In this document: positions 12,324 through 29,239 of the stretch, piece after piece | Numbering within the stretch: the first letter of the stretch is position 1 | Layout of the letters: each line of letters begins with the position of its first letter | The notes under the pieces: generated by a model | Databases searched by the model: none | What the model saw: the letters and a program-made list of their open reading frames with translations, nothing else | Told to the model about the DNA's origin: nothing | Source of the DNA: a virus | DNA: 54,575 nucleotides | Reading direction: 5' to 3' (one strand) | IMG/VR virus record: IMGVR_UViG_3300017742_002321 | Span: 1 to 54,575 of that record | Position numbers and translations under genes: made by a program

Positions 12324-13247
12324 ATGAAAAAAGTATTTTCTATCACAGGCGGAGCAGGCCGCGTTCTTTGTAGCATTCCTGCACTACTTAAATATTACAA
12401 AAGAGAAGGCAATAACTTTTACATTTTTGCAGAATCAGGTTTAGAATTTTTTGTAGGAATAAAAGAGTTACAAGATATTGCATACACACCAGATACAAAG
12501 GGTGTGTTTGAAAATATTATCAAACCAAATATTTTAATTACTCCTGAGCCTTATCGTAATAGAGGCTACTATAATCAAGAAAAAAATCTAATTGAGGCAT
12601 TTGATGCTGAAATAAATCAAACTGACGACCATTCTGATTTAGAAAAAATTAAAATAATCTTAAATAAAGCCGAAGAAATAAATGCTGTTGATGCAATGAA
12701 TAATGCAAAAAAACAACAAGGCAAAGATAAGACAATTGTTATTCAACCATTTGGAAGAAGTGCCCAACCTAAACAAAATGAAATAGTTGACGACATGAGT
12801 AGATCTTTAAGTTTACGTACTTATATTAACATAGTAGATGCTCTTCAAAAAAAATATAATGTAATATACATGGGAGAATTTATGGAAGTTGAAGATAAAA
12901 CTTTTAAAATACAAACCCAATTAAGACAATGGGCTGGAATTATTGAAGCTGCAGATTATTTTATAGGGTGTGACAGTGTTGGACAGCATATGGCTAGAGC
13001 ATTTGATAAGCCTGCTACTGTAATCTTAGGAAGTACATTTGCTGAAAATATTACATATCCTGATCATTTTCAAATATTACAAAAAACACCCGTAGATATT
13101 AGGTACTTTCCGATAAGATTATTAGAGCAAGGTATCGATGGTGATATTGCAAACCGTTATAATGATACTTGTATGGATTTTACACCTGAACAAGAAAAGG
13201 ACTTTATCAAAAAAATTATGAATGATATAGAGGAAAAAGTAAGATAA
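12324..13247 (+). CDS. Glycosyltransferase family 9-like (heptosyltransferase-type)
   Basis: A 307-residue protein resembling ADP-heptose:LPS heptosyltransferases (GT9, GT-B fold). The C-terminal half carries TIVIQPFGRS (about residues 136-146), where GT9 enzymes have their nucleotide-sugar loop, and ADYFIGCDSVGQHMARAF (about 210-227), close to the family signature G-x-DSG-x-x-HLA, followed by KPATVILGST. The glycine after DS is replaced by V-G. Donor and acceptor are not determined, but an ADP-heptose operon 13 kb downstream makes heptose a reasonable candidate. The stop overlaps the next start by one base (TAATG), so translation is probably coupled to the carbamoyltransferase. Confidence 0.7.
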   Translation: MKKVFSITGGAGRVLCSIPALLKYYKREGNNFYIFAESGLEFFVGIKELQDIAYTPDTKGVFENIIKPNILITPEPYRNRGYYNQEKNLIEAFDAEINQTDDHSDLEKIKIILNKAEEINAVDAMNNAKKQQGKDKTIVIQPFGRSAQPKQNEIVDDMSRSLSLRTYINIVDALQKKYNVIYMGEFMEVEDKTFKIQTQLRQWAGIIEAADYFIGCDSVGQHMARAFDKPATVILGSTFAENITYPDHFQILQKTPVDIRYFPIRLLEQGIDGDIANRYNDTCMDFTPEQEKDFIKKIMNDIEEKVR

Positions 13248-15067
13248 TGGAAAAAAATAAAGATGTTTGGATTGCTGGAATAACACGAGGACATAACGGC
13301 TCTTTGTGTCTACTTAAAAACGGCGAGATTGTTTTTATTATAGAAGAAGAAAGATTAACTAGGTTAAAGTATGATGCAACACCTTTTGCAGGAATGACCA
13401 AAATACTTGAGTTTACTGATCATCTAGATTATCTTGTATATGCCCATACAGCTACTAGAGCACAATTTTGCCCAACAGTAGATTATACAGGAGAAGACAT
13501 TTATTATTCACTCGCTAGAAAATTAGGTTTAATTGCAAATATTCCACATGAACAAAATAAGCATCCTCAATGTATTGATCTAGGAAATATACATCATAAA
13601 TTACATGCCGCATGTGCATTTTATCGCAGTGGATTTGATAGTGCAACAGCAGTAGTAATTGACGGCGCTGGCTCGGGTTTTGAAGTTGCGGCTGTTAATA
13701 ACAAGTATAGGGTATGGGAAACAGAAACTGTATTTGATATGAGCTATCCAAATAATGTTAAAACACTTTATAAAAATGCTGGAGGGAATTTTAACGATTA
13801 TTATCAAAATTCTATTTATAGATCAGATAACGTAAGTACTGAACTATGGTTTGAAGAAGATGGCGATGCAGAAGTAGTATTAAGTACACATGCTGGAATT
13901 GTAAAATCATATGAAGCTGCAACATACTACTGTGGTTGGCACTTTATTGAGGCAGGTAAAACAATGGGTCTTGCTCCTTACGGAAAAGATAATCCGGATG
14001 TGCCGCCTATATGGGACGAAGGATGCAACTTATCTAATAGAAATTTAATACAAGCAACTTATCCAAACGGAGCCTATATTAACAAAGGATATAATGAATT
14101 TTTAGGTGATGACAGTGCAGAAGATGTTACAACGCTACAGAATAGAAGAGATGTAGCATATGCAGTACAAAAAGTCACACAGCAAAAAGCATTAGACCTA
14201 ATACTTAAAGCAGTTGAACTTACCGGAAATAAAAATGTTGTACTAAGTGGGGGTTATGCATTAAATTGCGTTGCAAATTATTTCTACTTAGAAGAATTAA
14301 AGAAGCACGATATTAATTTATATGTTGAACCTATAAGCAGCGATGCAGGAACAAGCATAGGTGCAGCTCTACTAGTATGGCATGACTTCCAAGCGCAATT
14401 TAACGAAGGCGAATGGAAAACAATTGACTATACACAAGATAGAATGTACACTGGGTTTGAATATAACTATAAAGACTTAGAAGATGTAGCAGAAAAATAT
14501 GGCGCAGAAGTAATCGATGCAACAAATAATGATGTTGTTGATTTAATTACTGATAGAAATATTGTGAGTATTTTCCAAGGTCGTTCTGAAGCAGGACCTC
14601 GAGCGTTAGGCAATCGTAGTATACTTTATGATCCTACAGATCCAGATGGCAAGGATCATGTTAATGGTATTAAAAATCGAGAATATTTTAGACCGTTTGC
14701 TGGCACAATACTTGAAGAAGATGCACATGACTGGTTTGATTTACGTGGAATGAAATCAAGCCCTCATATGATGTATGCAGTAAATTGTAAACCTGGTGTA
14801 GAGGATAAAATTCCTGCTATTATACACGTGGACGGAACATGTCGCATACAAACTGTTAACAGACAGGAAAATGAACATTACTACGATCTAATTAATGAAT
14901 TTAAATCTAGAACAGGATGTCCTATTATATTTAATACAAGTTTTAACTTAGGAGGAGAACCCTTAGTAGAAACATTAGATGATGCGTGTAGGACATTGTT
15001 TGCGAGTAAGATTGAATATTTGTATTTGCCAGAAGTACAAAAATTAGTTAAGATTAAAAATCCTTAA
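13247..15067 (+). CDS. NodU/CmcH-family carbamoyltransferase
   Basis: A 606-residue protein of normal length for O-carbamoyltransferases of the NodU/TobZ type, which move a carbamoyl group from carbamoyl phosphate through carbamoyl-AMP to a sugar hydroxyl. The N-terminal Kae1-like domain begins VWIAGITRGHNGSLCLLK and continues with EEERLTRLK. The C-terminal domain has the strong signature GRSEAGPRALGNRSIL (about residues 447-462) and FNTSFNLGGEPLVETLDDA near the end. Such genes occur in some marine T4-like phages. Coupled to the GT9 gene, it probably decorates a glycan. The acceptor is unknown. The 3' end overlaps the convergent oxygenase gene by 14 bases. Confidence 0.9.
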   Translation: MEKNKDVWIAGITRGHNGSLCLLKNGEIVFIIEEERLTRLKYDATPFAGMTKILEFTDHLDYLVYAHTATRAQFCPTVDYTGEDIYYSLARKLGLIANIPHEQNKHPQCIDLGNIHHKLHAACAFYRSGFDSATAVVIDGAGSGFEVAAVNNKYRVWETETVFDMSYPNNVKTLYKNAGGNFNDYYQNSIYRSDNVSTELWFEEDGDAEVVLSTHAGIVKSYEAATYYCGWHFIEAGKTMGLAPYGKDNPDVPPIWDEGCNLSNRNLIQATYPNGAYINKGYNEFLGDDSAEDVTTLQNRRDVAYAVQKVTQQKALDLILKAVELTGNKNVVLSGGYALNCVANYFYLEELKKHDINLYVEPISSDAGTSIGAALLVWHDFQAQFNEGEWKTIDYTQDRMYTGFEYNYKDLEDVAEKYGAEVIDATNNDVVDLITDRNIVSIFQGRSEAGPRALGNRSILYDPTDPDGKDHVNGIKNREYFRPFAGTILEEDAHDWFDLRGMKSSPHMMYAVNCKPGVEDKIPAIIHVDGTCRIQTVNRQENEHYYDLINEFKSRTGCPIIFNTSFNLGGEPLVETLDDACRTLFASKIEYLYLPEVQKLVKIKNP

Positions 15068-15653
15068 CATTAAGAAATTCACGCTGAGGGTATGTAACAC
15101 TACCAGTACCCTCAATGTTTCCTACAACAATAACTCTATCATTATCACCTTCATGAGATTGTACTTCGTGTTCTAACCATCCTGGAAAAATAATTCCAGT
15201 ACCGCTAGTAGGTTTATAATACATACCTGGTTTGTTATGAAAGTATATTGGGGCTGAGTTGTCATCTACTTTTGCATAATAAACCCAACTATATAATGCA
15301 GGAACATGTGCATGTCTTTCACTATAGTCACCTTTATTATATATAGAACCCCAGCATGTTGTTTGGAAGGTTTTAAGTTGTAAATCTGTGTACTCACTAT
15401 GCCAATCTTCTACAGTTTTTGTTGCTTTGTTTGATATAGCTGCAAATTCTTTATGTTCTAACATATTCCACTTAGTCATATGAGCTTTTACATTAGTTTC
15501 TCGTTTACGCACATCACCACCATTTCTAATAATATTTTCGATATTGTTGTGCAGTTCTTCTAATGTATATTCTTCAGTGTCAGACATAGAAAATTCCCAA
15601 AAGTGTATCGGTATTTCCATATACATAATATGTTGTTTAAAGTCGCTATCCAT
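15054..15653 (-). CDS. 2OG-Fe(II) oxygenase-like protein
   Basis: A 199-residue protein of the small 2OG-FeII_Oxy_5-type group common in marine phages. Candidate ligands are H114 and H116 (YSERHAHVPALYSWVYYAKV), H162 in FPGWLEHEV and R173, expected to bind 2-oxoglutarate, in NDRVIVVGNI. Family members couple oxidation of 2-oxoglutarate to hydroxylation of a substrate; the substrate here is unknown. An AGGAT site four bases upstream supports the start at 15653. It is the last gene of a four-gene minus-strand operon and lies next to a related oxygenase. Confidence 0.75.
   Translation of the reverse strand: MDSDFKQHIMYMEIPIHFWEFSMSDTEEYTLEELHNNIENIIRNGGDVRKRETNVKAHMTKWNMLEHKEFAAISNKATKTVEDWHSEYTDLQLKTFQTTCWGSIYNKGDYSERHAHVPALYSWVYYAKVDDNSAPIYFHNKPGMYYKPTSGTGIIFPGWLEHEVQSHEGDNDRVIVVGNIEGTGSVTYPQREFLNVKDF
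15085..15114. terminator. Possible terminator hairpin between convergent genes
   Basis: An 8-base inverted repeat (TGAGGGTA and TACCCTCA) with a 14-base loop lies just after the carbamoyltransferase stop, inside the end of the oxygenase gene. It has no clear T-run, so it may be weak. Confidence 0.3.
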
Positions 15654-15661
15654 TTTACATC

Positions 15662-16231
15662 CTATAGATTAAATGAGAAAACTTTTCTCGGTTGATCGTT
15701 TTCTTTATACATTAATTCGTGTGTTAACCAGCTATCCCACATTAGTATCATCCCATTTTCTGGTTTAATTGATTCAATATACTTACCACCATAATCACTA
15801 GGTTCAAATTGTACGTGTGGTCTAGGGTCATGAAATAGTAATTGCGGAACATCGTCACCTACTTCTAAATATATAATTCCACTAAATCTACAATCTTTAT
15901 GAGTGTGTTTTCTCAAATGAGCACCTTTTTTCATATTACTAAAAAAGCCGTAAGGTCGAAAAGAATCTTTATCAACAAATTGCTGTCGCTGACTCGCAAA
16001 ATTATTTGCAATTTCATACAGATACTCGAATACCATTTTTACTGTAGGGTCTGTATTTACAGGATAAGATAATTCAGTATTTGCAAGTGTACTAGGAAAA
16101 TTATCTATATGTAGTAAATTTGTTTGAGTCTTAGATGTGTAATCATTGCATAATTTTAAAAGATCGTTTTTCATATTTTCATTTACAATATCTTTAAAAA
16201 TTTGCGTGGGGAAAAAGTTAACAATCTCCAT
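15662..16231 (-). CDS. 2OG-Fe(II) oxygenase-like protein
   Basis: A 189-residue paralogue-type neighbour of the preceding gene. The iron and co-substrate residues appear as H109 and H111 in LRKHTHKDCRFSGIIYLEV, H171 in WDSWLTHELMYKEN and R182 in QPRKVFSFNL, the usual order for this oxygenase group. The N-terminal 90 residues are mostly helical. It ends nine bases before the next start, and only three bases separate it from the gene upstream in the operon. The substrate is unknown; the two oxygenases share little sequence beyond the core, so they may act on different targets. Confidence 0.75.
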   Translation of the reverse strand: MEIVNFFPTQIFKDIVNENMKNDLLKLCNDYTSKTQTNLLHIDNFPSTLANTELSYPVNTDPTVKMVFEYLYEIANNFASQRQQFVDKDSFRPYGFFSNMKKGAHLRKHTHKDCRFSGIIYLEVGDDVPQLLFHDPRPHVQFEPSDYGGKYIESIKPENGMILMWDSWLTHELMYKENDQPRKVFSFNL

Positions 16232-16234
16232 AAG

Positions 16235-16948
16235 TTACTCCATTACATTCTTTTTTATCTCTTGTATTATATTTTTTTTAATTTTTGACTCATTAAACAT
16301 AGAATATAATTTTGCTAAACTTCTTTGTTTCCAAAAAGTTTTTAATCTTACACAACTTAACGAATGATTAAACAGTTCCTCTGTCATTCTAAATTTCTTA
16401 AATATAACTCGATCTGTTGTATTTGCCCTTACATACATCATTGGCTCGCCCTGAAGTATTTTAAATTTAGTTTCATTAGGATACATTTGATATGCATATT
16501 CTAATGGCCTAAACCATTGATTTATATCAAATCCACCTGGTACATAGTATCCATAATCAGACGCTGATGTTTTGTGCATAAACGGATGCATTGATTCTAA
16601 ATGTAAACTTTCTTCACAGAAAAAGATCCAGTTTGCTGAAACTTTTATTGTATGTGAATTAAGTAGGCTGGGTTGTTTAATTATTAAATGTTTGTCAGTA
16701 GTATCATTATTTCCAATTACTCCGTTAGAAGTAATTTCTATATCTGCAAACGTAGGACTATTCAGTAACCAAGTATTTTTATATTGATTTGTAAACGCTG
16801 GACAATTTAAAAAATTATCTTGCTTATTTTCTTTGTTTATGTTAGACTGTAGATCCTGTAAAACATTTACAGGATCTGAATATGATAAAAACTGTTCAGC
16901 AACTTGATCGACAGGCCCCCAAGGCGCCCAATAGACAATTTTTGTCAT
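16235..16948 (-). CDS. Unknown phage protein, paralogue of the neighbouring 243-residue protein
   Basis: A 237-residue protein without a recognised domain. It shares an ordered set of motifs with the gene upstream in its operon: NCPAF followed about 13 residues later by P-x2-ADIEI, a central N-x-W-x3-C segment, and GEPMMYVRANTTDRV followed by an EE pair. This indicates distant paralogy. The C-terminal 45 residues are lysine-rich and helical. It overlaps the upstream gene by four bases. Proteins of this look occur beside oxygenase genes in marine phages, but I cannot name a function. Confidence 0.6.
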   Translation of the reverse strand: MTKIVYWAPWGPVDQVAEQFLSYSDPVNVLQDLQSNINKENKQDNFLNCPAFTNQYKNTWLLNSPTFADIEITSNGVIGNNDTTDKHLIIKQPSLLNSHTIKVSANWIFFCEESLHLESMHPFMHKTSASDYGYYVPGGFDINQWFRPLEYAYQMYPNETKFKILQGEPMMYVRANTTDRVIFKKFRMTEELFNHSLSCVRLKTFWKQRSLAKLYSMFNESKIKKNIIQEIKKNVME

Positions 16949-17676
16949 TTAACTGGCTTTACTCCTTGTTGTCTATAATATCTTCCTACCATTGTTGCAG
17001 GCATATGATTTCCCATCTGCGCCCATTCCTCAACTGATATCTGATGATATCTTAGTTCAACTGGACGTTCTGTCATTGGAAACATAGACATTAGAGGATG
17101 TCCAAATTTTAGTGTTACAATATATGGTTCTGGCTTTACTGGGCAATTAAGGTGTACATTAGTGCTAACTTGATATTTAAAATTTGTAAGACCAGGTGAC
17201 TGATATATACCCTTGTCTTTTAAATAAGAGGAACTATAATGTGAATCCATCATTAAAAAATCAACAGGTTCTGAACATCTAAGCTTCCAAGGATTTTCTA
17301 ACTTTAGTGCCACACGCTGACCCTTATATACTCCTTTCCATTGCTCTGGAGGATGCTCGCTAACATTTAAATCAAACGGCCGCATTTCAATTGTAGTTGA
17401 CCAAGTTGCGTCCGGATTCATACGTATATCAAGATCTGCCCACATAGGAAAATGTATAGCTTTAGACATAAAGTCTCTAATACCGGGACATATACCTACA
17501 GTACTCATTTTATTGTGCATGCCTATTTGCTCAATCCATAAAGTTACGGTTGTTTTTAATTCTTCTAACCAAGTAGGCTTAGGCCGTTCTGTCCCAAATG
17601 TAGGTTTTGCATTTATAAAATACGATTTGTTGCTAGTATAGCAATCTAATATAATTGGTTTTTTTCTAAACATCAA
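16945..17676 (-). CDS. Unknown phage protein, paralogue of the neighbouring 237-residue protein
   Basis: A 243-residue protein that opens the minus-strand operon. It has VGICPGIRDFMSKA (about residue 60), P-x2-ADLDI, NPWKLRCSEPVDFLMMDSHY (about residue 129) and FGHPLMSMFPMTERPVELRY near the C-terminus, all with counterparts in the next gene. No catalytic motif is evident. An AGGAG site lies just upstream of the ATG. The promoter for this operon is not obvious in the 61-base gap to the divergent gene at 17738. The operon order suggests it works with the two oxygenases, perhaps supplying or binding their substrate, but that is speculation. Confidence 0.62.
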   Translation of the reverse strand: MMFRKKPIILDCYTSNKSYFINAKPTFGTERPKPTWLEELKTTVTLWIEQIGMHNKMSTVGICPGIRDFMSKAIHFPMWADLDIRMNPDATWSTTIEMRPFDLNVSEHPPEQWKGVYKGQRVALKLENPWKLRCSEPVDFLMMDSHYSSSYLKDKGIYQSPGLTNFKYQVSTNVHLNCPVKPEPYIVTLKFGHPLMSMFPMTERPVELRYHQISVEEWAQMGNHMPATMVGRYYRQQGVKPVK

Positions 17677-19075: not shown

Positions 19076-22000
19076 ATGGCAAAAACACAAATAAAAAATT
19101 ACGTATTTAAACCAGGAATGGGTGGATTAGAAAATCTTTATCCTAATGCATATTCATTACTTACAAGCAATAAATCCTTTTTACAAAAGGAAGTTAATGC
19201 ATATATAACACAAAAAGTATTGGACGCAAGGCAATATACACCCCAAACTGCAACTTACTTACCTGCAACTGGAGTTATGGAACTTACTATTATTCCTAAT
19301 ACAATGTTTACTCCAACTACAGGTACTTATAACCCTAGTTCGGGCGATGCTGTACTTACAATAGGAACTCATACTTTAACCGTTGGCCAATATATAAAAG
19401 TTTCTGCTAACGGAATAACTTGGTCAAATACAAGTAATACTCAGCCTACATATCCAACATACGCAATAAGAATTAATGCTGTAAGTGCAACTACAATCAC
19501 AGTTGATCTTGGAGTAAGAACAGATGATGTTTCTGTGCATACTTTTGTTAGTTCATTAACAAATTCTGTAGTACTAAGTCACAACTTTAATGTTGGAGAC
19601 GCAATTAATATAGCTACACACGGAATTACTTTTAGATGCGCATTAGATGGTAATGCTACATTACACCCATATCCAAGACCTGTTGGCGTGCCAAACGCAA
19701 CAGGTCATGATCCGTACTATAACAAACCTATTATTATTACAGATATAGGCGATACAACAGTTTCAGTAAATGTAGGCATATCTTCTGATACTTCTGTACA
19801 CACATTTGAAAGTGCAGTTACAGATGGTGTTAGTGATGTATTTTTTAACTATGTTAATACAAGTGCAGATAAGTGCGAACGAGATGTTGGACTAATATTA
19901 GATGCATATAAGAATGACTTACGATATGGCGGCAACGAAAAAACATACAAGTATGTAAATTACTATTGGGACAACGGAGTTGCTCAAGTTGACGGCGATA
20001 GAGGTGCAGAATTAGCATCCCATGCACTTATTCAACGCTTACTTACAGATTATATATTCCAAAATACTACATATCCGCAAGTGTTGAATAGTGAAGTTAC
20101 ACAAACTACAAATTCAACCAACGGAGAAGCGGTTGCAAGCACTCGTATAGATACGTTAAGTAATGTTGTTATAAACGTAATACACAACGGTGTATCAAGC
20201 TTGCCAACATATGAAGAAAATACAATTGGTAAACTATCTTTCCAAGGTAGATACGATCAAGATGAAATTTTAATTGCTTCAAATACAACTACAAACAATA
20301 TCATTTATAACTTTGCTGATGTTAATGCAGGCGCAAAGGTTGAATTACAAACAAAAGGTACTAACGAAAACTTTAAGTCTTATTTACAAACAACTGACGC
20401 AGTCACTATGTTATGGCTTAATATCAACACTGAAGATCAATCAGAAACTGATGATATACAAATTTTTGTAGAAAAAATAGAAAACGGCAAAAGTGTTCAA
20501 ACAGTAAGACCATACGATTTTGGTACAGATGCTATTGAGCGTATGCGTATTGCACCGCCACTAAGTATGCTCGATGCTGACTTTGAGTACGGGCTTCAGC
20601 CTACTAAATGGTCTGCAATTGCTATGATGAGAGGGTATCCTAGTGTATACGAAATACCTGGAACTAGTTCCGAAGTATTATCAGTTGTAACTGATGCAAG
20701 TGCAGGAACAAGTGGCGTAGGTGCATCATTAATTACAGTAACAACAGTTGCACCACATGGTTTTGATTCAGGAACTCCTATAACAATTAAAGCTTTAGAA
20801 AATGCAGTTTCGGGAGCAGCTAGAGGAGAAGGTAGTTTTGTTATAGTCGAAACACCAACTGACAATACTTTTACATATTATGCAAAGTCAAAAGTTGGCA
20901 CTAATAATGGTGATGTACTTTCTACGGGATACACGCAGTTAAGAGAAGCTGGATTTTATACAGGCGCTGGCATTACTAATGCAAATTTCCAAGTTGTAAG
21001 TAATGGTAGTGCAGGAACAATGATAACTGAATTGTCTGTTCCGACAGGTTCTAACACACTGCCATATGACGGTAATAGTCCAGAAGTTGGCTCACCGTTA
21101 ACTGGCACCGGAATACCACTAGGCGCACAGGTTACAAACTTTGTTGATAACTCATCTGGCGGCGGCGAATTTAGTACATTAGAAATTGCAGAAAATGCAG
21201 TAATTGGAGATACTGATATTGAAGTAGTAGATTCTACAGGTATACTTGCAAACCTTGCATTAGATCGCGGCGACGGACAAGCTATATTTGTTAATAATAT
21301 TGTAGGTAATACACTTACACTGAGTGGCGGATTAACATCAAACTTAGCTTCTAATACTAAAACATATACCGGAGTATTACCTAGCACCGAACCAGTAGAT
21401 GGTCTAGGTGCAACATTTGACATTACTAGATCTGGTGGATCTTATTCTTTAGATGCAATTGCTACAGCCGGTGTTGATTATAAAGCTGGGGATAGACTAA
21501 AAGTATTAGGTACGATTCTAGGCGGAACAACTCCTACAAATGACTGTTTAATTTATGTTGACAGTGTTGCTACAAGTCCGTTAGGAGCAATAACAACTGT
21601 TACTTTGTCAGGTACAGCCGTTGGCGGAACAGCATCATTTAACGGTTCCGGCGCAATATACGAAGGCGGCCAAGGTCGAGACGTATTAGTAGACGTTACA
21701 GTTAACAATAATGTATATTCAATAGCACTAAATGCAGGTGATGTATCTGATGACTTTATAGCAAATGATACATTTAGAATATTAGGTTCAAACCTTGGAG
21801 GCATTGATTCAACTAATGATGCGATATGTACAGTTACTAGTGTAGGTACTGTGGGCGGAAGAACCGGTGCAATTACAGGAATAAGTATTTCTGGCACAGG
21901 CGCAGATGCTGATGTTGTTTATTCAGATGTACCTTATACAACTTCAGCCGCAGGGGGCACAAGCGCAACTGTAGATATAAGACGTGTAGGCACTGTGTAT

Positions 22001-25000
22001 CAAGCAATTATTCCTTTACTAAACGGCGGCGCAGGATATAGTATCGGAGATCAATTTACAGTTGATGGTGCAGACCTAGGAGGCGCATCAACAACTAACG
22101 ATTGTACTGTAACAATTGATAACGTAGACGGTAGTGGATCTATTACAGCATCAAGCGCAGCTGGTGTATCTGTAAATAATGAATCATTTACAACAGGTAT
22201 TATCGAAATTATTAACCCAACTGGAGCAACATTTGATGTTGACTTAAATGCAACAGTATATACGATAACACTTGCTACGGGCGGCACCAATTATGCGCCG
22301 AACCAAGAATTAAAAATATTAGGTAACTTAGTTGGCGGTGCAACACCAACTAACGATATTATAATCACAGTGCTAACAGTGGACGCCACAGGTGCTGTGT
22401 TAACATTCAACTCAACAGGCAGTGGTAATAACGGCACATTAGCATATACTAATGTAGCACCACAAGCTGATGTACCGGCAGGATCAGGCGCCGAGTTTAC
22501 TATTAGAAGAATAAACGGCATATATGATAATATATTAATTACTCAAGGCGGCACAAACTATGAAATTGGTAATACTTTGTTTGTACCTGGATCACAATTA
22601 GACGGTGATGGTACACACGATTTAACGTTTTTTGTAACCGGTGTAAACGCGGGTGCAGTAACATCGTATACTCCAAACTTTACAGGTGCTAATCCGGGTG
22701 ATAGTGTAGCATTAATTTGTACATTTACAATGAGTGAAGTAACAACAGAACCTGTGCCACAAACTACATCTATTAGCTTCAGCGAGTTAGCAACAATTGA
22801 AGCAACATTTGATACTCCACATGGTATTGTTCCTGGCAACAGTTTCATAACAGTTATTGGTTCAGATGATGGATCAAACAACCATTTACTTGCATCGGGT
22901 GCTTTCCTTGCAACTAATATACCTTCAACTAATCAATTAAGATTTGTAGCAAGAGCTGCAGGATCAATCTCAACTAGTGCTTCAGATGTTATTTCAGGAA
23001 CATTCTATACTAGGCCAGATAGTTTCTTTATTCATAGGCCATTTGACGGCGGCGTTCAGTTAGGAACTGGCGGCCCGCAGCACGGAGCGCAAGCAATACG
23101 TCAAAGTAAAAAATATATTCGTTACCAATCAGGTAAAGGTATTATGTACACAACTGGTGCTCTATTTGCACCAAGCTATGATTTAGCAAGTGTAACTGCC
23201 GATGGCACAGAAGTTAATTCTTTAATTACTATTACGACAGACGATAACGATCACGGAGTTCAAGTAGGCGGTATAATTAGATTATTAGCTGTAGAAAGTA
23301 GCGGCTACAACAGTGGTACAGAAACAGTAGTACCCCCCGAGTTTGATTATACTGTACAAGAAGTTATAAATGAAAGAACTTTCAAAGTGAGGGCACTTAG
23401 ACGTCTTGCTGATGACACTGAATTTTTAGAAGCAACAGCAATTGCTGATTGGCCGTTAGTACAAGTATTTGACGAAGTATTACTTGATACTAACACAAGC
23501 GATGTACACGACTTTTTCCTTAATGAAACAGCATATGACGGTCGTAAGTGGGGCGATTTTAACGAAAGCGATTCTATAACAGTAGATGACAAAACTGCAC
23601 TTACAAATCATTTGCAAGGTATTAGTCAAACTGCAACTATAGATAACCGAGTGAAAATTGCGCTAGCTGAATTAAAATCAAGAAGAAATGTAGGCACAGT
23701 AGAAGATACTGTTCCGGTAATGAAACAAGAAGCTGTACTTGGTTTTGGCTCCCAAATGAGTGTTGTTGCATGGCACGGCGCAACTGTACGTTCTGGTATT
23801 TTTGATGATCAAAATGGTATTTTTTGGGAATTTGATGGACAAAACGTTAGTGTAAATCAACGTACAGGTACACAACAATTAGCAGGAACATGTGCTATTG
23901 AAGTTGACAGCAATACTGTTACTGGTACAGCAACAAGATTTAGAGACCAAACAAAGGCTGGCGATAGAATTATTATTAGAGGTATGACACATGTTGTATC
24001 ACACGTTGTTAGCCAAACAGAAATCAATGTAACACCAGATTTTAGAGGTGTTACTGATATTACTGGTGCAAAAGCTAATTTAGTAGTTGACAAAAAAGTG
24101 AAACAGCAAGACTTTAACTTAGATACACTTGACGGTGCTGGACCAAGTGGTTACGATATTGACATTGCTAAGATGCAAATGATCGGTATTCAATACAGTT
24201 GGTATGGTGCTGGTTTTATCGACTTTATGCTACGTGGCTCAGATGGTAACTTTGTATTTGCACATAGAATGCGTAACTCAAACGTAAACACAGAAGCGTT
24301 TATGCGTTCAGGTAACTTGCCTGTGCGTTACGAAGTTACTAACGAAGGCTATCCAGCAAAACTTGCAGCAGCACTAGATAATACACAAACTACGATTCCG
24401 TTATTAGATAGTAGTTTCTTCCCAGAGTTTGGAACTGTGTACATCGATAATGAAATTATTAGTTTTACTGCTAATGACAAAACAACAAATACACTTACTG
24501 GATGTACAAGAGGCACTGCACTAACTAACTTCCAATCAGGAGCAGAAAGAACGTATAGCGCAGGCGCAGCGGACGCACACGTAGATAAAACTGGAGTAGT
24601 ATTAATTAGTAATACAATTACTCCGTTGATATCACACTGGGGTTCAGCATTTTTAACAGATGGCGGATTTGACGAAGATAGAGGATACATTTTCTCATAC
24701 GCTGAAACAGGTCTTAATGCAAATACAATTAAACAAACAGCGTTTATGTTAAGACTAGCACCTAGTGTTTCTAATGCTATTATTGGCGACCTAGGTGAAA
24801 GAGAATTGCTTAACAGAGCACAGTTGTTGTTGCAAGGACTAGAAATTACATCAGATGGTTTTGAAAGCGACGGCACTCCTATTCAAGGCGGCATTGTTAT
24901 TGAAGGTGTGTTGAATCCACAAAACTATCCAATTAATCCAGCAGATGTTGGTTGGACAGGACTGTCAAGCGTTGCACAAGGTGGACAACCTAGCTTTGCA

Positions 25001-25825
25001 CAAGTTGCATCAGGTGGTAGTGTGAACTGGACAACTGATAACACTGTTACAAACACCACAGGTACTCAAATATCTAATACAACTGGCACATTAGACAGTG
25101 GTATATATACCAGTTATCGAAGAAATAGTGTAGTTTATGTTAACGCAACAGACTTTAGAAATACATTCGGAACCGATATTAATGCAGTCCTTGGAGCATC
25201 TATTGTAGATAACGTTCAAGGTCGAATTCCAGCTAACACAACTATTACTGGCGGACAGATAAACGGTAGCGGCGACTATGGCTATCTTCGACTTTCAAAT
25301 CGTATATCAGGCAACATTAATGGAAATCAATCAAATAGATTTGACATTACTCGAAATGCTACGCTTGTAAACAGGAACTATGCATACATAGACTCAACTA
25401 GTTATGCTGCTTCGGGTATTACGCTAGGAACACCAGTAACCGAATCCGGCGGAAGTGTAGTATTCCCTGCAAACACAAGTGTATCTGCAATATCCCAAAA
25501 AATATTTGGTAGTGTAACATATTACGAAGTACAGTTTAACAACGCATTTACAGGAACACTAGCTGCAGGCACAGGAACAATACAATTTGCATTTAGTCAA
25601 CCTCCGTTTGCACAGCCGGGCGAAACAGTATTTTCGTTTATTGCTAACCCAGGAGAAAGATCAACTGTGGACTTTAGTGAATTGAAAGAACTTACAAATA
25701 CCACACTAGGTGGCAGAGGAACCTTCCCAAATGGTCCAGATGTTCTTGCAATTAACGTGTATAAGGTTTCGGGTGCGGATGCAAATGCAAACCTTATTCT
25801 AAGATGGGGTGAAGCACAGGCCTAA
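19076..25825 (+). CDS. Giant (2249 aa) tail/baseplate-associated virion protein
   Basis: The N-terminus, KNYVFKPGMGGLENLYPNAY, is typical of a very large structural protein of T4-like cyanophages whose place in the tail is not settled. A C-x-RDVG-x-ILDA motif (about 19873) is shared with the second giant fibre. Between about 21410 and 22710 are five diverged tandem repeats of about 75-90 residues with the pattern Y-x(6-12)-GG-x-(D/N)-Y-x2-(G/N)-x3-(K/R)-(I/V)-LG-x-LGG-x3-TND. Conserved segments near 23030 (FIHRPFDGGVQLGTGGPQHG) and 23700-24500 follow, with a terminal domain ending in ILRWGEAQA. No catalytic motif is seen. Its stop overlaps the convergent gmhB gene by four bases. Confidence 0.8.
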   Translation: MAKTQIKNYVFKPGMGGLENLYPNAYSLLTSNKSFLQKEVNAYITQKVLDARQYTPQTATYLPATGVMELTIIPNTMFTPTTGTYNPSSGDAVLTIGTHTLTVGQYIKVSANGITWSNTSNTQPTYPTYAIRINAVSATTITVDLGVRTDDVSVHTFVSSLTNSVVLSHNFNVGDAINIATHGITFRCALDGNATLHPYPRPVGVPNATGHDPYYNKPIIITDIGDTTVSVNVGISSDTSVHTFESAVTDGVSDVFFNYVNTSADKCERDVGLILDAYKNDLRYGGNEKTYKYVNYYWDNGVAQVDGDRGAELASHALIQRLLTDYIFQNTTYPQVLNSEVTQTTNSTNGEAVASTRIDTLSNVVINVIHNGVSSLPTYEENTIGKLSFQGRYDQDEILIASNTTTNNIIYNFADVNAGAKVELQTKGTNENFKSYLQTTDAVTMLWLNINTEDQSETDDIQIFVEKIENGKSVQTVRPYDFGTDAIERMRIAPPLSMLDADFEYGLQPTKWSAIAMMRGYPSVYEIPGTSSEVLSVVTDASAGTSGVGASLITVTTVAPHGFDSGTPITIKALENAVSGAARGEGSFVIVETPTDNTFTYYAKSKVGTNNGDVLSTGYTQLREAGFYTGAGITNANFQVVSNGSAGTMITELSVPTGSNTLPYDGNSPEVGSPLTGTGIPLGAQVTNFVDNSSGGGEFSTLEIAENAVIGDTDIEVVDSTGILANLALDRGDGQAIFVNNIVGNTLTLSGGLTSNLASNTKTYTGVLPSTEPVDGLGATFDITRSGGSYSLDAIATAGVDYKAGDRLKVLGTILGGTTPTNDCLIYVDSVATSPLGAITTVTLSGTAVGGTASFNGSGAIYEGGQGRDVLVDVTVNNNVYSIALNAGDVSDDFIANDTFRILGSNLGGIDSTNDAICTVTSVGTVGGRTGAITGISISGTGADADVVYSDVPYTTSAAGGTSATVDIRRVGTVYQAIIPLLNGGAGYSIGDQFTVDGADLGGASTTNDCTVTIDNVDGSGSITASSAAGVSVNNESFTTGIIEIINPTGATFDVDLNATVYTITLATGGTNYAPNQELKILGNLVGGATPTNDIIITVLTVDATGAVLTFNSTGSGNNGTLAYTNVAPQADVPAGSGAEFTIRRINGIYDNILITQGGTNYEIGNTLFVPGSQLDGDGTHDLTFFVTGVNAGAVTSYTPNFTGANPGDSVALICTFTMSEVTTEPVPQTTSISFSELATIEATFDTPHGIVPGNSFITVIGSDDGSNNHLLASGAFLATNIPSTNQLRFVARAAGSISTSASDVISGTFYTRPDSFFIHRPFDGGVQLGTGGPQHGAQAIRQSKKYIRYQSGKGIMYTTGALFAPSYDLASVTADGTEVNSLITITTDDNDHGVQVGGIIRLLAVESSGYNSGTETVVPPEFDYTVQEVINERTFKVRALRRLADDTEFLEATAIADWPLVQVFDEVLLDTNTSDVHDFFLNETAYDGRKWGDFNESDSITVDDKTALTNHLQGISQTATIDNRVKIALAELKSRRNVGTVEDTVPVMKQEAVLGFGSQMSVVAWHGATVRSGIFDDQNGIFWEFDGQNVSVNQRTGTQQLAGTCAIEVDSNTVTGTATRFRDQTKAGDRIIIRGMTHVVSHVVSQTEINVTPDFRGVTDITGAKANLVVDKKVKQQDFNLDTLDGAGPSGYDIDIAKMQMIGIQYSWYGAGFIDFMLRGSDGNFVFAHRMRNSNVNTEAFMRSGNLPVRYEVTNEGYPAKLAAALDNTQTTIPLLDSSFFPEFGTVYIDNEIISFTANDKTTNTLTGCTRGTALTNFQSGAERTYSAGAADAHVDKTGVVLISNTITPLISHWGSAFLTDGGFDEDRGYIFSYAETGLNANTIKQTAFMLRLAPSVSNAIIGDLGERELLNRAQLLLQGLEITSDGFESDGTPIQGGIVIEGVLNPQNYPINPADVGWTGLSSVAQGGQPSFAQVASGGSVNWTTDNTVTNTTGTQISNTTGTLDSGIYTSYRRNSVVYVNATDFRNTFGTDINAVLGASIVDNVQGRIPANTTITGGQINGSGDYGYLRLSNRISGNINGNQSNRFDITRNATLVNRNYAYIDSTSYAASGITLGTPVTESGGSVVFPANTSVSAISQKIFGSVTYYEVQFNNAFTGTLAAGTGTIQFAFSQPPFAQPGETVFSFIANPGERSTVDFSELKELTNTTLGGRGTFPNGPDVLAINVYKVSGADANANLILRWGEAQA

Positions 25826-25836
25826 AGAGCCTGTGC
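25814..25836. terminator. Hairpin at the convergent gene junction
   Basis: Perfect 8-base stem GCACAGGC/GCCTGTGC with a 7-base loop spans both stop codons. It lacks a T-run and may act together with the hairpin at 25844. Confidence 0.4.
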
Positions 25837-26427
25837 AAAATCCCACAAGTTATTATAAACTTGTGTTTGTTTTTTAATAGGTCTGTAAGAATGTCTACTA
25901 CTTAATAGTTCTTCAGTTTCAACACCGTGACCTGTGCGCACAAGTATAGGTGTTGCTTTTACCTTGAATGCAGCTTTTAAATCAGTAATTTTATCACCTA
26001 CATAATATCCTGTAGACCAATTTAAATTTTTAATATCCGTGGCTGCTTTTTTAAACATACCTACGTTAGGTTTTGCAAACGGATCTTGTTTTACATTAGA
26101 TGCACTAAAATATATTCCGTCTATACTAGGACATCCTGCTTGACCAAATAAGTCAAGCATGTAATGATGTAAAGTGTTTACATCATCCTCTGTATATAGT
26201 CCTTTGTGTATGCCGGCTTGATTTGTAATTATTACAACTTTGTGACCCTTTTGTCTAATCAAAGACACAGCTTCTATAGATTTTGGTATAGGCTCAAAGT
26301 CTTCTTTTTTCCAAGTATATGTACCACGATCTAAATTTATAACGCCGTCTCTATCTAATCCTACAACGCTTTTTTTAAAATTATCTATAGTGTGTTGAGA
26401 ATTTTTAAGATGGTTGTATCGGCTCAT
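25822..26427 (-). CDS. gmhB: D,D-heptose 1,7-bisphosphate phosphatase (HAD family)
   Basis: A 201-residue HAD phosphatase. The catalytic aspartates are D25 and D27 in GLDRDGVIN, followed by VVIITNQAG, the lysine in AKPNVGMF and GDKITDL. GmhB removes the 1-phosphate from D-glycero-D-manno-heptose 1,7-bisphosphate between the two HldE reactions. The zinc-binding loop (C-x-H and C-x-C) of the E. coli enzyme is replaced by cysteine-free sequence, YFSASNVKQDPFAKP. It overlaps the cupin gene by 23 bases and ends the hldE-hldD-cupin-gmhB operon. Context raises confidence over a generic histidinol-phosphatase-like HAD. Confidence 0.82.
   Translation of the reverse strand: MSRYNHLKNSQHTIDNFKKSVVGLDRDGVINLDRGTYTWKKEDFEPIPKSIEAVSLIRQKGHKVVIITNQAGIHKGLYTEDDVNTLHHYMLDLFGQAGCPSIDGIYFSASNVKQDPFAKPNVGMFKKAATDIKNLNWSTGYYVGDKITDLKAAFKVKATPILVRTGHGVETEELLSSRHSYRPIKKQTQVYNNLWDFAQAL
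25844..25875 (+). terminator. Intrinsic terminator for the giant structural gene
   Basis: An 8-base stem (CACAAGTT/AACTTGTG) with a 6-base loop is followed by TTTGTTTTTT. It lies inside the coding end of the convergent gmhB gene. Confidence 0.65.
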
Positions 26428-26797
26428 TTTCTACCTTCTGGCTATCACCTGGAAAGACTCTATAATTATCTTCAACTGAATCAGCAGTACTAACCTCAGT
26501 AATAGTTCCTGCTGTAATAGCTGTCAGCTGATGAGGTTGTAATGGAGGATTATGCCATGTATCCCCCGGCTTTAGTTCTTGTGAGAACAACTCTGCTGTT
26601 TTAGTATCTATCCATCTTACCATAAATCTGCCTTCATTAACAAACCATGTTTCATCTTTTTCTTTATGAAAATGCATTGAAAATTTAGCACCGGGCTTAT
26701 TAAATACCATAAGCTTACCACAGTATAAATCATTAGTAGCCCAAATTAATTCTATGCCCCAACCTTTTTCTACTGTTCCTGAAAGTCTACTTGCCAT
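26405..26797 (-). CDS. Cupin-domain protein (mannose-6-phosphate isomerase type II-like)
   Basis: A 130-residue single cupin. The first cupin motif is clear: G-x5-H-x-H-x4-E-x6-G in GAKFSMHFHKEKDETWFVNEG (split at the two histidines), and the second is GDTWHNPPLQPHQLTAI. N-terminal WGIELIWATND resembles the start of the cupin half of type II mannose-6-phosphate isomerases, which isomerise sugar phosphates with a metal. It overlaps hldD by 11 bases and gmhB by 23 bases, so it is embedded in the ADP-heptose operon. It might replace or assist a missing sugar-phosphate isomerase, but single cupins are diverse and this is only a hypothesis. Confidence 0.72.
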   Translation of the reverse strand: MASRLSGTVEKGWGIELIWATNDLYCGKLMVFNKPGAKFSMHFHKEKDETWFVNEGRFMVRWIDTKTAELFSQELKPGDTWHNPPLQPHQLTAITAGTITEVSTADSVEDNYRVFPGDSQKVENEPIQPS

Positions 26798-27605
26798 GTA
26801 TATAATCCTCTATGTTAATCCAATCTATGTCCAATACTGAATTTAGTTTATCCATTTTTGCACATGTAAATTCTTGATACTGTGATTTTATGTTTTCTGG
26901 CATCGGCACATATTCTATATTGCCGCCATGCTTGTTAACAATAGCCTGTGCTACAGATTCAAAGCTCACAGAACGTCCTGTACCTACATTGTATATGTCA
27001 GAACTATTAATATCTAACATTGCTTCGTGTACTTTACACACATCATCAACACATATAAAATCTCTACGATAGTTATTACTATCTTCAAATAATTTAATTA
27101 CACCATTGTCTTTGGCTTGATATGCAAATTTAGTATAAGGACTTGCTTGATCGCCTTTGTGTTCTTCACCTTCTCCGTATACATTAAAATATCTAAAACC
27201 TTGTATGTTTATTTGAAATTCATCCTTAAGTTGCATTACAAATCTATCAAATAGGTACTTTGTCCATGCATAAGGTGATTGAGGTTGTAATGGACCATGC
27301 TCAATAAAATGCGTAGTGGGTCCATACACACTTGCGCTAGAAGCATATTGCATATTAACACCCATCATATCACAAGTTTGTGCAAGCCTAACGCTAAATT
27401 CAAAATTTGTTTCCATAATTTCTTCTACGTTTGTAAACGTTGTAGAAGTAATTGCACCTAGATGTATAACCCAATCGTATCCACTCGGATCAGGTATTGT
27501 ACCAGGAATATAATCCCAACCTTCTACATCATGGCCTTTGCGTTGCAGATATTTTGCAACGTTTGATCCAATAAATCCTTTGTGTCCTGTAACTAATATT
27601 TTCAT
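26787..27605 (-). CDS. hldD: ADP-L-glycero-D-manno-heptose 6-epimerase
   Basis: A 272-residue extended short-chain dehydrogenase. The NAD(P) motif GHKGFIG is at residues 7-13, a serine-rich stretch YASSASVYG is at 87-95 and the Y112-x3-K116 pair is in SPYAWTKYLFD. HldD-type features include GAITSTT, GFRYFNVYGEGEEHKG, NNYRRDFICVDDV, YNVGTGRSVSFESVAQAI and YQEFTCAKMDKL. HldD inverts C6 of ADP-D,D-heptose to give the L,D form used in LPS cores. At 272 residues it is shorter than the roughly 310 of E. coli. It overlaps hldE by four bases (ATGA) and the cupin by eleven, indicating translational coupling. Confidence 0.9.
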   Translation of the reverse strand: MKILVTGHKGFIGSNVAKYLQRKGHDVEGWDYIPGTIPDPSGYDWVIHLGAITSTTFTNVEEIMETNFEFSVRLAQTCDMMGVNMQYASSASVYGPTTHFIEHGPLQPQSPYAWTKYLFDRFVMQLKDEFQINIQGFRYFNVYGEGEEHKGDQASPYTKFAYQAKDNGVIKLFEDSNNYRRDFICVDDVCKVHEAMLDINSSDIYNVGTGRSVSFESVAQAIVNKHGGNIEYVPMPENIKSQYQEFTCAKMDKLNSVLDIDWINIEDYIHGK

Positions 27606-28741
27606 TTGCTGTTCTCTATAATCTGTGTTGTTGAATATCCATCCACTGTAGGTATAATATGTACATCAGCTAAATTATGTCCTACTACGGTTTCAACAGT
27701 ATAGTCACCACCTTTTACAATTAAGTTAGGTGCTATATGTTTAATTAACTCATAAGGAGTATCTTGTTCAAAAACGTGAACTTCGTCTACCCATGGTAAT
27801 ATAGATATTTGTTCAACACGTTTTTTTATGTTGTTTACTGGGCGATTATTGCCCTTTAGACGTTTTACACTTGCATCTGAGTTTATACCCACAACAAGTC
27901 TATCGCCTAAACTACGTGCTTCTTTTAGTAAATTAAAATGTCCTGTGTGCATAATATCAAACACACCATTTGTAAAAATTACACGCTCTTCAATATCATT
28001 GTGCGCTAGTGTATATGTGCCTACGTGCTGTACTGCACATCTAGAACCTTTTATAGCAATCTCTAAACATTTCATATAATCATAACTTTTAGTTAAGCCA
28101 TATACAAATGCTGCTAAGAAACAATCGCCTGCTCCTGTAACATCTGATACTTCTACTTGTGCAACAGGAAGATTATAATCAACATCGTCTATACAAGCAA
28201 CTACATTATCACTGGCATTAGTAGTAATGATATTGCCATTCCAATCACTAAATCCAAACTTAGTAAATTCACTATTATTAGGTTTTACTAACCATGCGTT
28301 TTTGTACTGAGTTGCATGTTCTTTAGGGTCTACAATAATTTTACAACCAAATTTATTAATATGTTCTATAATTTTTAAAGATTCATCTAGAACACCTTTG
28401 TTATAATCACTTAGTACTACATAATCATACTTAGAAAAATCACTACATAATACTTCATCTAAAACTACGTTTGAATTTGCATGTTTATCGTTGTCTATAC
28501 GGGTTATGTAATGACCGTCACATATTATACGTGTCTTAATACTACGTGGTTGATTTGTTTTAAATAATGTAACATCAACTCCTAAACTTTTAAGATTCTC
28601 ATATACAAGTCCTGCCCCTCCAAGTGTTTCAACTTCGCTCTTGTATGTAATTACAGGAACGGGGGCTTCGGGACTAATGCGTGAACTAGTACCGTAGATA
28701 TACTTGTCGATGATTATGTCACCAAGAACTAATACTTTCAT
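27602..28741 (-). CDS. hldE: Bifunctional heptose-7-phosphate kinase / heptose-1-phosphate adenylyltransferase
   Basis: A 379-residue two-domain protein, about 100 residues shorter than E. coli HldE (477), mainly in the kinase. The ribokinase-like domain begins VLVLGDIIIDKYIYG, has ISPEAPVPV at 22-30, GGAG at 41-44 and DVTGAGDCF at 200-208. The nucleotidyltransferase domain starts at about residue 252 with VIFTNGVFDIMHTGHFNLL (HTGH at 265-268) and has VKGGDYTVE near 342-350. It would phosphorylate heptose 7-phosphate at C1 and later load the 1-phosphate onto AMP. A perfect sigma70-type promoter ends so close to the ATG that the mRNA may be leaderless. It heads the overlapping heptose operon. 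Confidence 0.9.
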   Translation of the reverse strand: MKVLVLGDIIIDKYIYGTSSRISPEAPVPVITYKSEVETLGGAGLVYENLKSLGVDVTLFKTNQPRSIKTRIICDGHYITRIDNDKHANSNVVLDEVLCSDFSKYDYVVLSDYNKGVLDESLKIIEHINKFGCKIIVDPKEHATQYKNAWLVKPNNSEFTKFGFSDWNGNIITTNASDNVVACIDDVDYNLPVAQVEVSDVTGAGDCFLAAFVYGLTKSYDYMKCLEIAIKGSRCAVQHVGTYTLAHNDIEERVIFTNGVFDIMHTGHFNLLKEARSLGDRLVVGINSDASVKRLKGNNRPVNNIKKRVEQISILPWVDEVHVFEQDTPYELIKHIAPNLIVKGGDYTVETVVGHNLADVHIIPTVDGYSTTQIIENSK

Positions 28742-28747
28742 CTTTAT

Positions 28748-28776
28748 ATTATACTACGTTTGATGCGATATGTCAA
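28748..28776 (-). promoter_or_regulatory. Perfect sigma70 promoter for the hldE operon
   Basis: On the minus strand TTGACA (28776-28771), 17 bases, then TATAAT (28753-28748): both hexamers and the spacing match the bacterial consensus exactly. The -35 and spacer lie within the 3' end of the Nudix gene. The expected first transcribed base is the A of the hldE ATG at 28741. Confidence 0.8.
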
Positions 28777-29239
28777 GTAAATTTATGGTTTGGAATACAG
28801 TTTCTAATTTATTTAAATTTACTTTACTTTGTAATGTATTGCGTAAACCAAAATGTAATGGTTTTGGCCATTTGGTAAATGCACTCCATGCATAACCGTC
28901 ATGTTCGTTATTAAGGGTAGGTATAAATTCAGATTGGACAACGCAAAGATATGTGTGGAAATAAAATTTACTATCTGCACTTATAAAACTTTCTAAAGGC
29001 AAAGTTTTTTTAATGTCTGGCAAAAAGCCAATTTCTTCTTCTATCTCTCTTGTTAAACCTTCGAATGGTGTTTCTAATCCTTCATTTGTGCCGCCAACTA
29101 GCCCCCACATGTTATTACGTTTGCCGTTTGCTCTATGTAAAAAAAGAAATCTATTTGTATCTAAAGTATAGAATAGTGCTCCACTACATGTAATCATATC
29201 TGTCATACATATAATTAGCCCGTTAGTGATATTCTCCAT
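28754..29239 (-). CDS. Nudix hydrolase
   Basis: A 161-residue protein with a complete Nudix box, G-x5-E-x7-RE-I-x-EE-x-G, around residues 50-72 (GTNEGLETPFEGL, then TREIEEEIGF). Nudix enzymes hydrolyse nucleoside diphosphates linked to another group, with a divalent metal. NMWGLVGG before the box is typical of the MutT/Nudix fold. The substrate is unknown; a role in nucleotide pool cleaning or sugar-nucleotide turnover would fit. The start at 29239 lies 25 bases inside the end of the gp15 gene and has no clear ribosome site, so M12 at 29206 or M15 are alternatives. It carries the hldE promoter in its 3' end. Confidence 0.85.
   Translation of the reverse strand: MENITNGLIICMTDMITCSGALFYTLDTNRFLFLHRANGKRNNMWGLVGGTNEGLETPFEGLTREIEEEIGFLPDIKKTLPLESFISADSKFYFHTYLCVVQSEFIPTLNNEHDGYAWSAFTKWPKPLHFGLRNTLQSKVNLNKLETVFQTINLLDISHQT

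Follow-up and report, generated by a model that had tools for sequence, protein, structure and literature searches.

The locus described here raises the question of how a phage that encodes the later enzymes of ADP-heptose synthesis could enter that pathway without the phosphoheptose isomerase GmhA. It lies in IMGVR_UViG_3300017742_002321, a 54,575-base IMG/VR fragment (hereafter the window, meaning this whole stretch of DNA), and takes the form of an operon in which a small cupin is encoded together with homologues of HldE, HldD and GmhB. The ADP-heptose route comprises five activities: isomerase, kinase, phosphatase, adenylyltransferase and epimerase. An earlier note on this DNA had counted three of four activities; three proteins are indeed recognised, but the route has five steps and HldE, GmhB and HldD cover four of them. 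We consider it likely that these four genes are enough on their own for the whole conversion of sedoheptulose 7-phosphate into ADP-L-glycero-beta-D-manno-heptose, the cupin replacing GmhA. The overlapping hldE-hldD-cupin-gmhB operon is present as first described, its four open reading frames following one another on the minus strand with head-to-tail overlaps of 4, 11 and 23 nucleotides:

27602 to 28741, minus strand: hldE-like bifunctional protein, 379 aa (NF008454, TIGR02198, TIGR02199, 4e84 profile, AlphaFold/Foldseek)
26787 to 27605, minus strand: hldD-like ADP-glyceromanno-heptose 6-epimerase, 272 aa (TIGR02197, 1eq2)
26405 to 26797, minus strand: single-domain cupin, 130 aa, proposed sedoheptulose 7-phosphate isomerase (Cupin_2, 2y0o, gene-swap data)
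25822 to 26427, minus strand: gmhB-like HAD phosphatase, 201 aa (PRK08942, 4pnh, 2gmw)

In agreement with the earlier note, heptose enzymes are the best structural or profile matches for the three proteins that flank or precede the cupin. HldE is a PfkB heptose 7-phosphate kinase with a GAGD catalytic motif (approximately residues 1-250) fused to a CTP_transf_like adenylyltransferase (approximately residues 250-379), and is closest to HldA and HldC. It is matched in profile searches by NF008454 (1e-82) as well as by TIGR02198 and TIGR02199, and a 40-sequence HldE profile run against the PDB finds Burkholderia cenocepacia HldA (4e84) at 8e-59. Foldseek places HldA at the top for its AlphaFold model (pLDDT 92.5), at 2.5e-23 with the next kinase at 1e-13, and matches the C-terminal part to HldC. 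HldD is matched by TIGR02197 (3e-70) and by the HldD structure 1eq2 (9e-47), to which the catalytic Tyr and Lys positions align; the YxxxK motif of the SDR fold and the second catalytic lysine (K178 in E. coli) are both kept, and Y112, K116 and K150 are invariant among nine phage homologues. GmhB is matched by PRK08942 (4e-39) and by the heptose bisphosphate phosphatases 4pnh and 2gmw (2e-18), alignments to which show the DRDG motif present and the zinc-loop cysteines absent. Because the scores of all heptose-specific models in the window sit below the NCBI equivalog cut-offs (278 bits against 521 for HldE), we regard these enzymes as divergent members of their families. The kinase domain is about 65 residues shorter than its bacterial counterpart. 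Shortened kinase domains also occur in other phage cassettes, and this conservation, together with the confident model, rules out a broken kinase.

The case for the cupin as the missing isomerase begins with its active site. The protein matches Cupin_2 (PF07883, 3e-8) and, in profile searches, the D-lyxose isomerase 2y0o; the window cupin gives no match to the D-lyxose isomerase family PF07385 above the Pfam cut-off, and its relative L009 scores 20.6 against a cut-off of 20.8. Seventeen columns are invariant in 50 of 50 diverse homologues. The Thermofilum D-lyxose isomerase contacts fructose or mannose through K62, H75, H77, K86, E88, H143, E156 and D163 together with Mn (PMC8378251). Mapping through the 2y0o alignment, with D110 placed by spacing only, gives K28, H42, H44, K47, E49, H89, E101 and D110 as the phage counterparts, each of them invariant. 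The aligned elements are YCxK (Y25-K28), HxH (H42/H44), KxE (K47/E49), H89 and the glutamate of ExS(S/T) (E101). The residues at the metal positions (H42, H44, E49 and H89) are thus His, His, Glu and His in all 50 homologues, and K28, K47, E101 and D110 correspond to the additional sugar contacts K62, K86, E156 and D163. W13, G14, E16, S40, S103 and T104 are likewise invariant, and R113 is found in 48 of the 50. The AlphaFold model (pLDDT 93.4) is a single cupin barrel, for which the highest Foldseek TMq values are 0.74 for an E. coli sugar isomerase and 0.72 for the Thermofilum enzyme. The phage protein therefore shares with the cupin D-lyxose/D-mannose isomerases (2y0o, 3kmh and 7nzo) its fold, metal ligands and active-site lysines, glutamate and aspartate, but differs in being one short barrel of about 115-130 residues, in falling below the PF07385 cut-off and in its proposed substrate, a phosphorylated heptulose. 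The D-lyxose/D-mannose isomerases yield the same manno-type configuration at C2 as does GmhA. Two other identities were considered for the cupin: cysteine dioxygenase is ruled out by the active-site pattern and the gene context, and an RmlC-type NDP-sugar epimerase finds neither a family match nor a 4,6-dehydratase in the window cassette.

The second line of evidence is the mutual exclusion of the cupin and GmhA. GmhA is marked by a SIS domain with the NGGS motif, and no SIS match was found among the cassette reading frames of the window. The window comes from a large marine phage, probably a T4-like jumbo, given that its terminase shares 53% identity with the one found in the Pseudomonas phage PA5oct group and its UvsX 63% with the Agrobacterium phage Atu_ph07 protein; since it is a fragment, the absence of GmhA from it alone proves nothing, and relatives are needed. 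Four viral scans were seeded with the cupin, GmhA, HldD and the short kinase, and GmhA was sought in the loci with one E. coli sequence (E < 1e-5), a query that recovered GmhA in 80 of 80 GmhA-seeded loci. Each of the 80 cupin-seeded loci includes a gene for a heptose kinase or an adenylyltransferase, and GmhA is absent from all of them. The cupin is present in 75 of 80 HldD-seeded and 74 of 80 kinase-seeded loci, again with no GmhA, and four of the five HldD-seeded loci without the cupin have fewer than 750 bases remaining past HldD. Dereplication leaves 105 viral loci that include a heptose kinase and have flanks of at least 2.5 kb; 83 of these have only the cupin, 22 only GmhA, none both and none neither. 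Among 177 well-flanked cupin loci, the kinase is found in 176, the epimerase in 175, the phosphatase in 129 and GmhA in none. The GmhA-seeded loci include kinase-GmhA-adenylyltransferase-GmhB and HddA-GmhA clusters; two of the 80 hold a cupin, some 5 kb off, and in the one inspected (L155) it stands beside an adenylyltransferase gene. The swap between cupin and GmhA is seen across hundreds of phage contigs. The earlier note had suggested looking for gmhA elsewhere in the phage genome, and whole-record searches with the SIS_2 profile (PF13580) found it in none of 21 cassette-bearing phage records (six complete cyanophage records of 181-252 kb and fifteen environmental contigs). In these 21 records, then, the cupin is not just the companion of a GmhA encoded elsewhere in the phage; it emerges as the constant partner of a pathway that is one step short. 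The proposal that only GmhA is missing, with a cupin of sugar-isomerase type in its place, is well supported by this comparative evidence.

A third line comes from GDP-heptose synthesis, in which HddA and HddC are the kinase and guanylyltransferase; the isomerase and phosphatase steps are common to the two routes. All 16 loci from an HddA-seeded scan that reach beyond HddA (L403-L418, representing about four dereplicated groups) read HddA-(HAD)-cupin-HddC, without GmhA. The bacterial GDP-D-glycero-alpha-D-manno-heptose pathway (GmhA, HddA, GmhB, HddC) is not present in the window, but these related phage clusters place the cupin in its GmhA slot. They are compact clusters in viral contigs, with overlapping genes. 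As the cupin stands in for GmhA in both routes and keeps company with a phosphatase, it is best explained as the isomerase.

We propose the following pathway, in which the substrate and direction of the cupin reaction, as well as the flux in the infected cell, are predictions from gene content and conservation. The cupin, with a divalent metal on H42, H44, E49 and H89, would interconvert sedoheptulose 7-phosphate and D-glycero-D-manno-heptose 7-phosphate, presumably through an enediol by analogy with the cupin D-lyxose/D-mannose isomerases, and would represent a non-orthologous replacement of GmhA. The HldE kinase domain would then form the 1,7-bisphosphate, GmhB would take off the 7-phosphate, the HldE adenylyltransferase domain would yield ADP-D,D-heptose, and HldD would epimerise this product. 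Compared with the bacterial GmhA-type pathway, the families of kinase, phosphatase, adenylyltransferase and epimerase are alike; what differs is the cupin in place of the SIS-fold GmhA, the shorter kinase and the phosphatase without a zinc loop.

Several observations weigh against this proposal. The chemistry cannot be read from the cupin fold alone, since quercetinases and oxalate decarboxylases rank as high as or higher than the isomerases when the Foldseek and larger-profile results are ordered by E-value. No heptose genes lie near the cupin of Marinoscillum (L093) or near those of two Patescibacteria (L109 and L384); in Poseidonibacter (L114), as in phages L155 and L157, the cupin is paired with an adenylyltransferase but no kinase. 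The wider family must accordingly have other uses. The Deltaproteobacterial genome of L107 has both the cupin unit and GmhA. In two of the four scans that fed the 105-locus table the seed was itself one of the isomerases; as such seeds select on the trait, the odds ratio from that table is inflated, and the informative figures are therefore the empty 'both' class and the results of the two scans with unbiased seeds. Finally, cupin loci come mostly from marine T4-like phages and GmhA loci mostly from other phages, so that lineage accounts for part of the pattern. That related cupins act outside the heptose pathway, and that the substrate of a cupin is not readable from its sequence, lends some weight to a scheme in which the phage cupin isomerises or epimerises another sugar phosphate, or gives another C2 epimer, the product of the cassette is some other heptose-like nucleotide sugar and the host supplies GmhA. 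We think this unlikely: the cupin excludes GmhA in the ADP and GDP routes alike, the closest kinase is a heptose 7-phosphate kinase and the closest epimerase HldD, the related isomerases already give the C2 configuration required, and picocyanobacterial genomes mostly lack HldD, which makes such hosts unlikely to run the pathway.

The exclusion might instead reflect phage lineage and habitat only, with marine phages using the cupin for tailoring or regulation and the host again providing GmhA. The labels on the kinase tree are strongly clustered, as this would predict, and the cupin contigs are largely marine and T4-like. We nevertheless hold it to be quite improbable. L154, which has the order kinase-HAD-adenylyltransferase-GmhA, falls inside a short-kinase clade (99% support) of otherwise all-cupin phages, so that a swap has taken place within a cupin clade, and supported branches of the tree force at least two changes between the cupin and GmhA labels. 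Two further clusters, the unrelated HddA/HddC one and that of a Parcubacterial genome, contain the same cupin; it is more constant across loci than the phosphatase, and its catalytic residues do not vary. There is very little to recommend the view that the cassette is a pseudo-pathway of filler DNA or function-altered genes that makes no ADP-heptose, a 'stuffer DNA' possibility raised for such clusters by Sullivan et al. 2010 (PMC3037559): the shortened kinase, the missing zinc loop and the scores under equivalog cut-offs would fit it, but the frames are intact and overlapping, active-site residues are invariant in divergent phages and HldE gives a confident HldA-like model.

Cellular replicates of the cupin cassette are few. 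One Parcubacterial genome, which has no SIS_2, holds a cluster in the order GT9-cupin-kinase-[adenylyltransferase+HAD]-HldD-like. Among the weaker matches to the cupin in Patescibacteria, most look like mannose-6-phosphate-isomerase-type cupins or are NTP transferase fusions, and the class to which Poseidonibacter belongs shows a cupin match in only two of 200 genomes. Nucleotidyltransferase-cupin pairs without a sugar kinase (L114, L110, L115, L155 and L157, from Campylobacterales and phages) possibly serve a different nucleotide-sugar route. The cupin neighbourhoods of the Marinoscillum isolate L093 and a 'Rickettsiales' metagenome-assembled genome (L094, a doubtful label) are nearly gene-for-gene alike, and their cupins are 67-70% identical to that of the window; heptose genes are not nearby.

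The phage heptose cassette as such is already known, having been described as cyanophage lipopolysaccharide (LPS) genes in 2010; T4-GC 304, 305, 307 and 308 are among seven that co-occur, and their function was left undecided (Sullivan et al. 2010, PMC3037559). In P-SSM2, S-CAM1, S-SSM7, S-SM2, P-TIM68 and S-T4, the kinase, adenylyltransferase, epimerase and a cupin of the same family lie in one cluster. The window shares with this set a PfkB kinase of short type, an adenylyltransferase, an epimerase resembling HldD and the cupin (34-40% identical to the window's). In the cyanophages, however, the kinase and adenylyltransferase are separate rather than fused, a short HAD protein of EcbF/BcbF type is found instead of the GmhB-like phosphatase, and the gene order differs. 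The RefSeq labels would give cyanophages a GmhA of their own. This is ruled out, as the proteins so labelled are short HAD phosphatases, with 103-118 residues, a DIDGT (as in DIDGTIC) or DIDET start typical of HAD proteins and a TIGR01689 match. In the cyanophage records L003, L004, L005 and L008 the name 'phosphoheptose isomerase' is given to such a protein (phrog_1238), and 'cysteine dioxygenase' to the cupin (phrog_7851); both names seem to be errors that have spread. The open PMC literature yielded nothing that joins a cupin with phosphoheptose isomerase and nothing relevant on phage-encoded ADP-heptose, and both the cupin-for-GmhA swap and the HAD mislabelling appear to have gone unrecognised so far.

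Three further genes of the window were considered alongside the operon:

28754 to 29239, minus strand: NUDIX hydrolase (PF00293, 1e-12)
12324 to 13247, plus strand: possible GT9-like glycosyltransferase, weak match (TIGR02201, 5e-6)
13247 to 15067, plus strand: NodU-type carbamoyltransferase, possible sugar-decorating partner (PF16861, 1e-59)

The NUDIX gene and a tail-sheath-stabiliser-like gene lie upstream of the operon on the same strand, and a giant virion open reading frame (19076-25825, plus strand) converges on it; a NUDIX gene sits immediately upstream of hldE in 97 of 109 scored loci. The GT9 gene that the earlier note placed at 12324 stands on less firm ground, its TIGR02201 match covering 42 residues and Pfam giving none. 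Of 218 cupin loci, 48 contain a homologue of this candidate and 65 one of the carbamoyltransferase; none of the 80 GmhA loci contains either. A carbamoyltransferase often adjoins the cyanophage cluster, as in P-SSM2 and S-CAM1. Its excess in cupin loci suggests a decorated sugar, although it may reflect lineage. In the window, positions 13247-17676 lie near tail fibre genes and hold, next to the carbamoyltransferase gene, two unknown genes and two that encode 2-oxoglutarate-Fe(II) oxygenases. The heptose would most likely be used in a glycan on the host envelope or virion, perhaps in carbamoylated form, and the several uses put forward earlier (host envelope change, superinfection block, glycosylation of virion or DNA) are not distinguishable from present evidence.

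As regards the hosts, HldD scores above cut-off in only two of 81 picocyanobacterial genomes, so that cyanophages probably need the whole route, even though some SIS_2 protein is found in 25 of the 81. On balance, we favour the broader view that the cupins are a new family of sedoheptulose 7-phosphate isomerases and the usual entry to ADP- and GDP-heptose in marine phages and a few bacteria, and that phages bring a complete pathway to hosts that mostly lack one. A function is hereby proposed for a protein family that is widespread in marine phages and is listed as 'cysteine dioxygenase' or hypothetical, and the cyanophage 'phosphoheptose isomerase' is recognised as a misannotated HAD phosphatase. 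The mislabel may also lie behind the 'gmhA' that has served as a marker gene for phages (PMC9238414). The question of 2010 concerning cyanophage LPS gene function can now be reduced to the activity of one enzyme. If our proposal is correct, phages can equip picocyanobacteria, most of which have no HldD, with heptose chemistry, and this would have a bearing on envelope remodelling, superinfection and virion glycosylation at sea.

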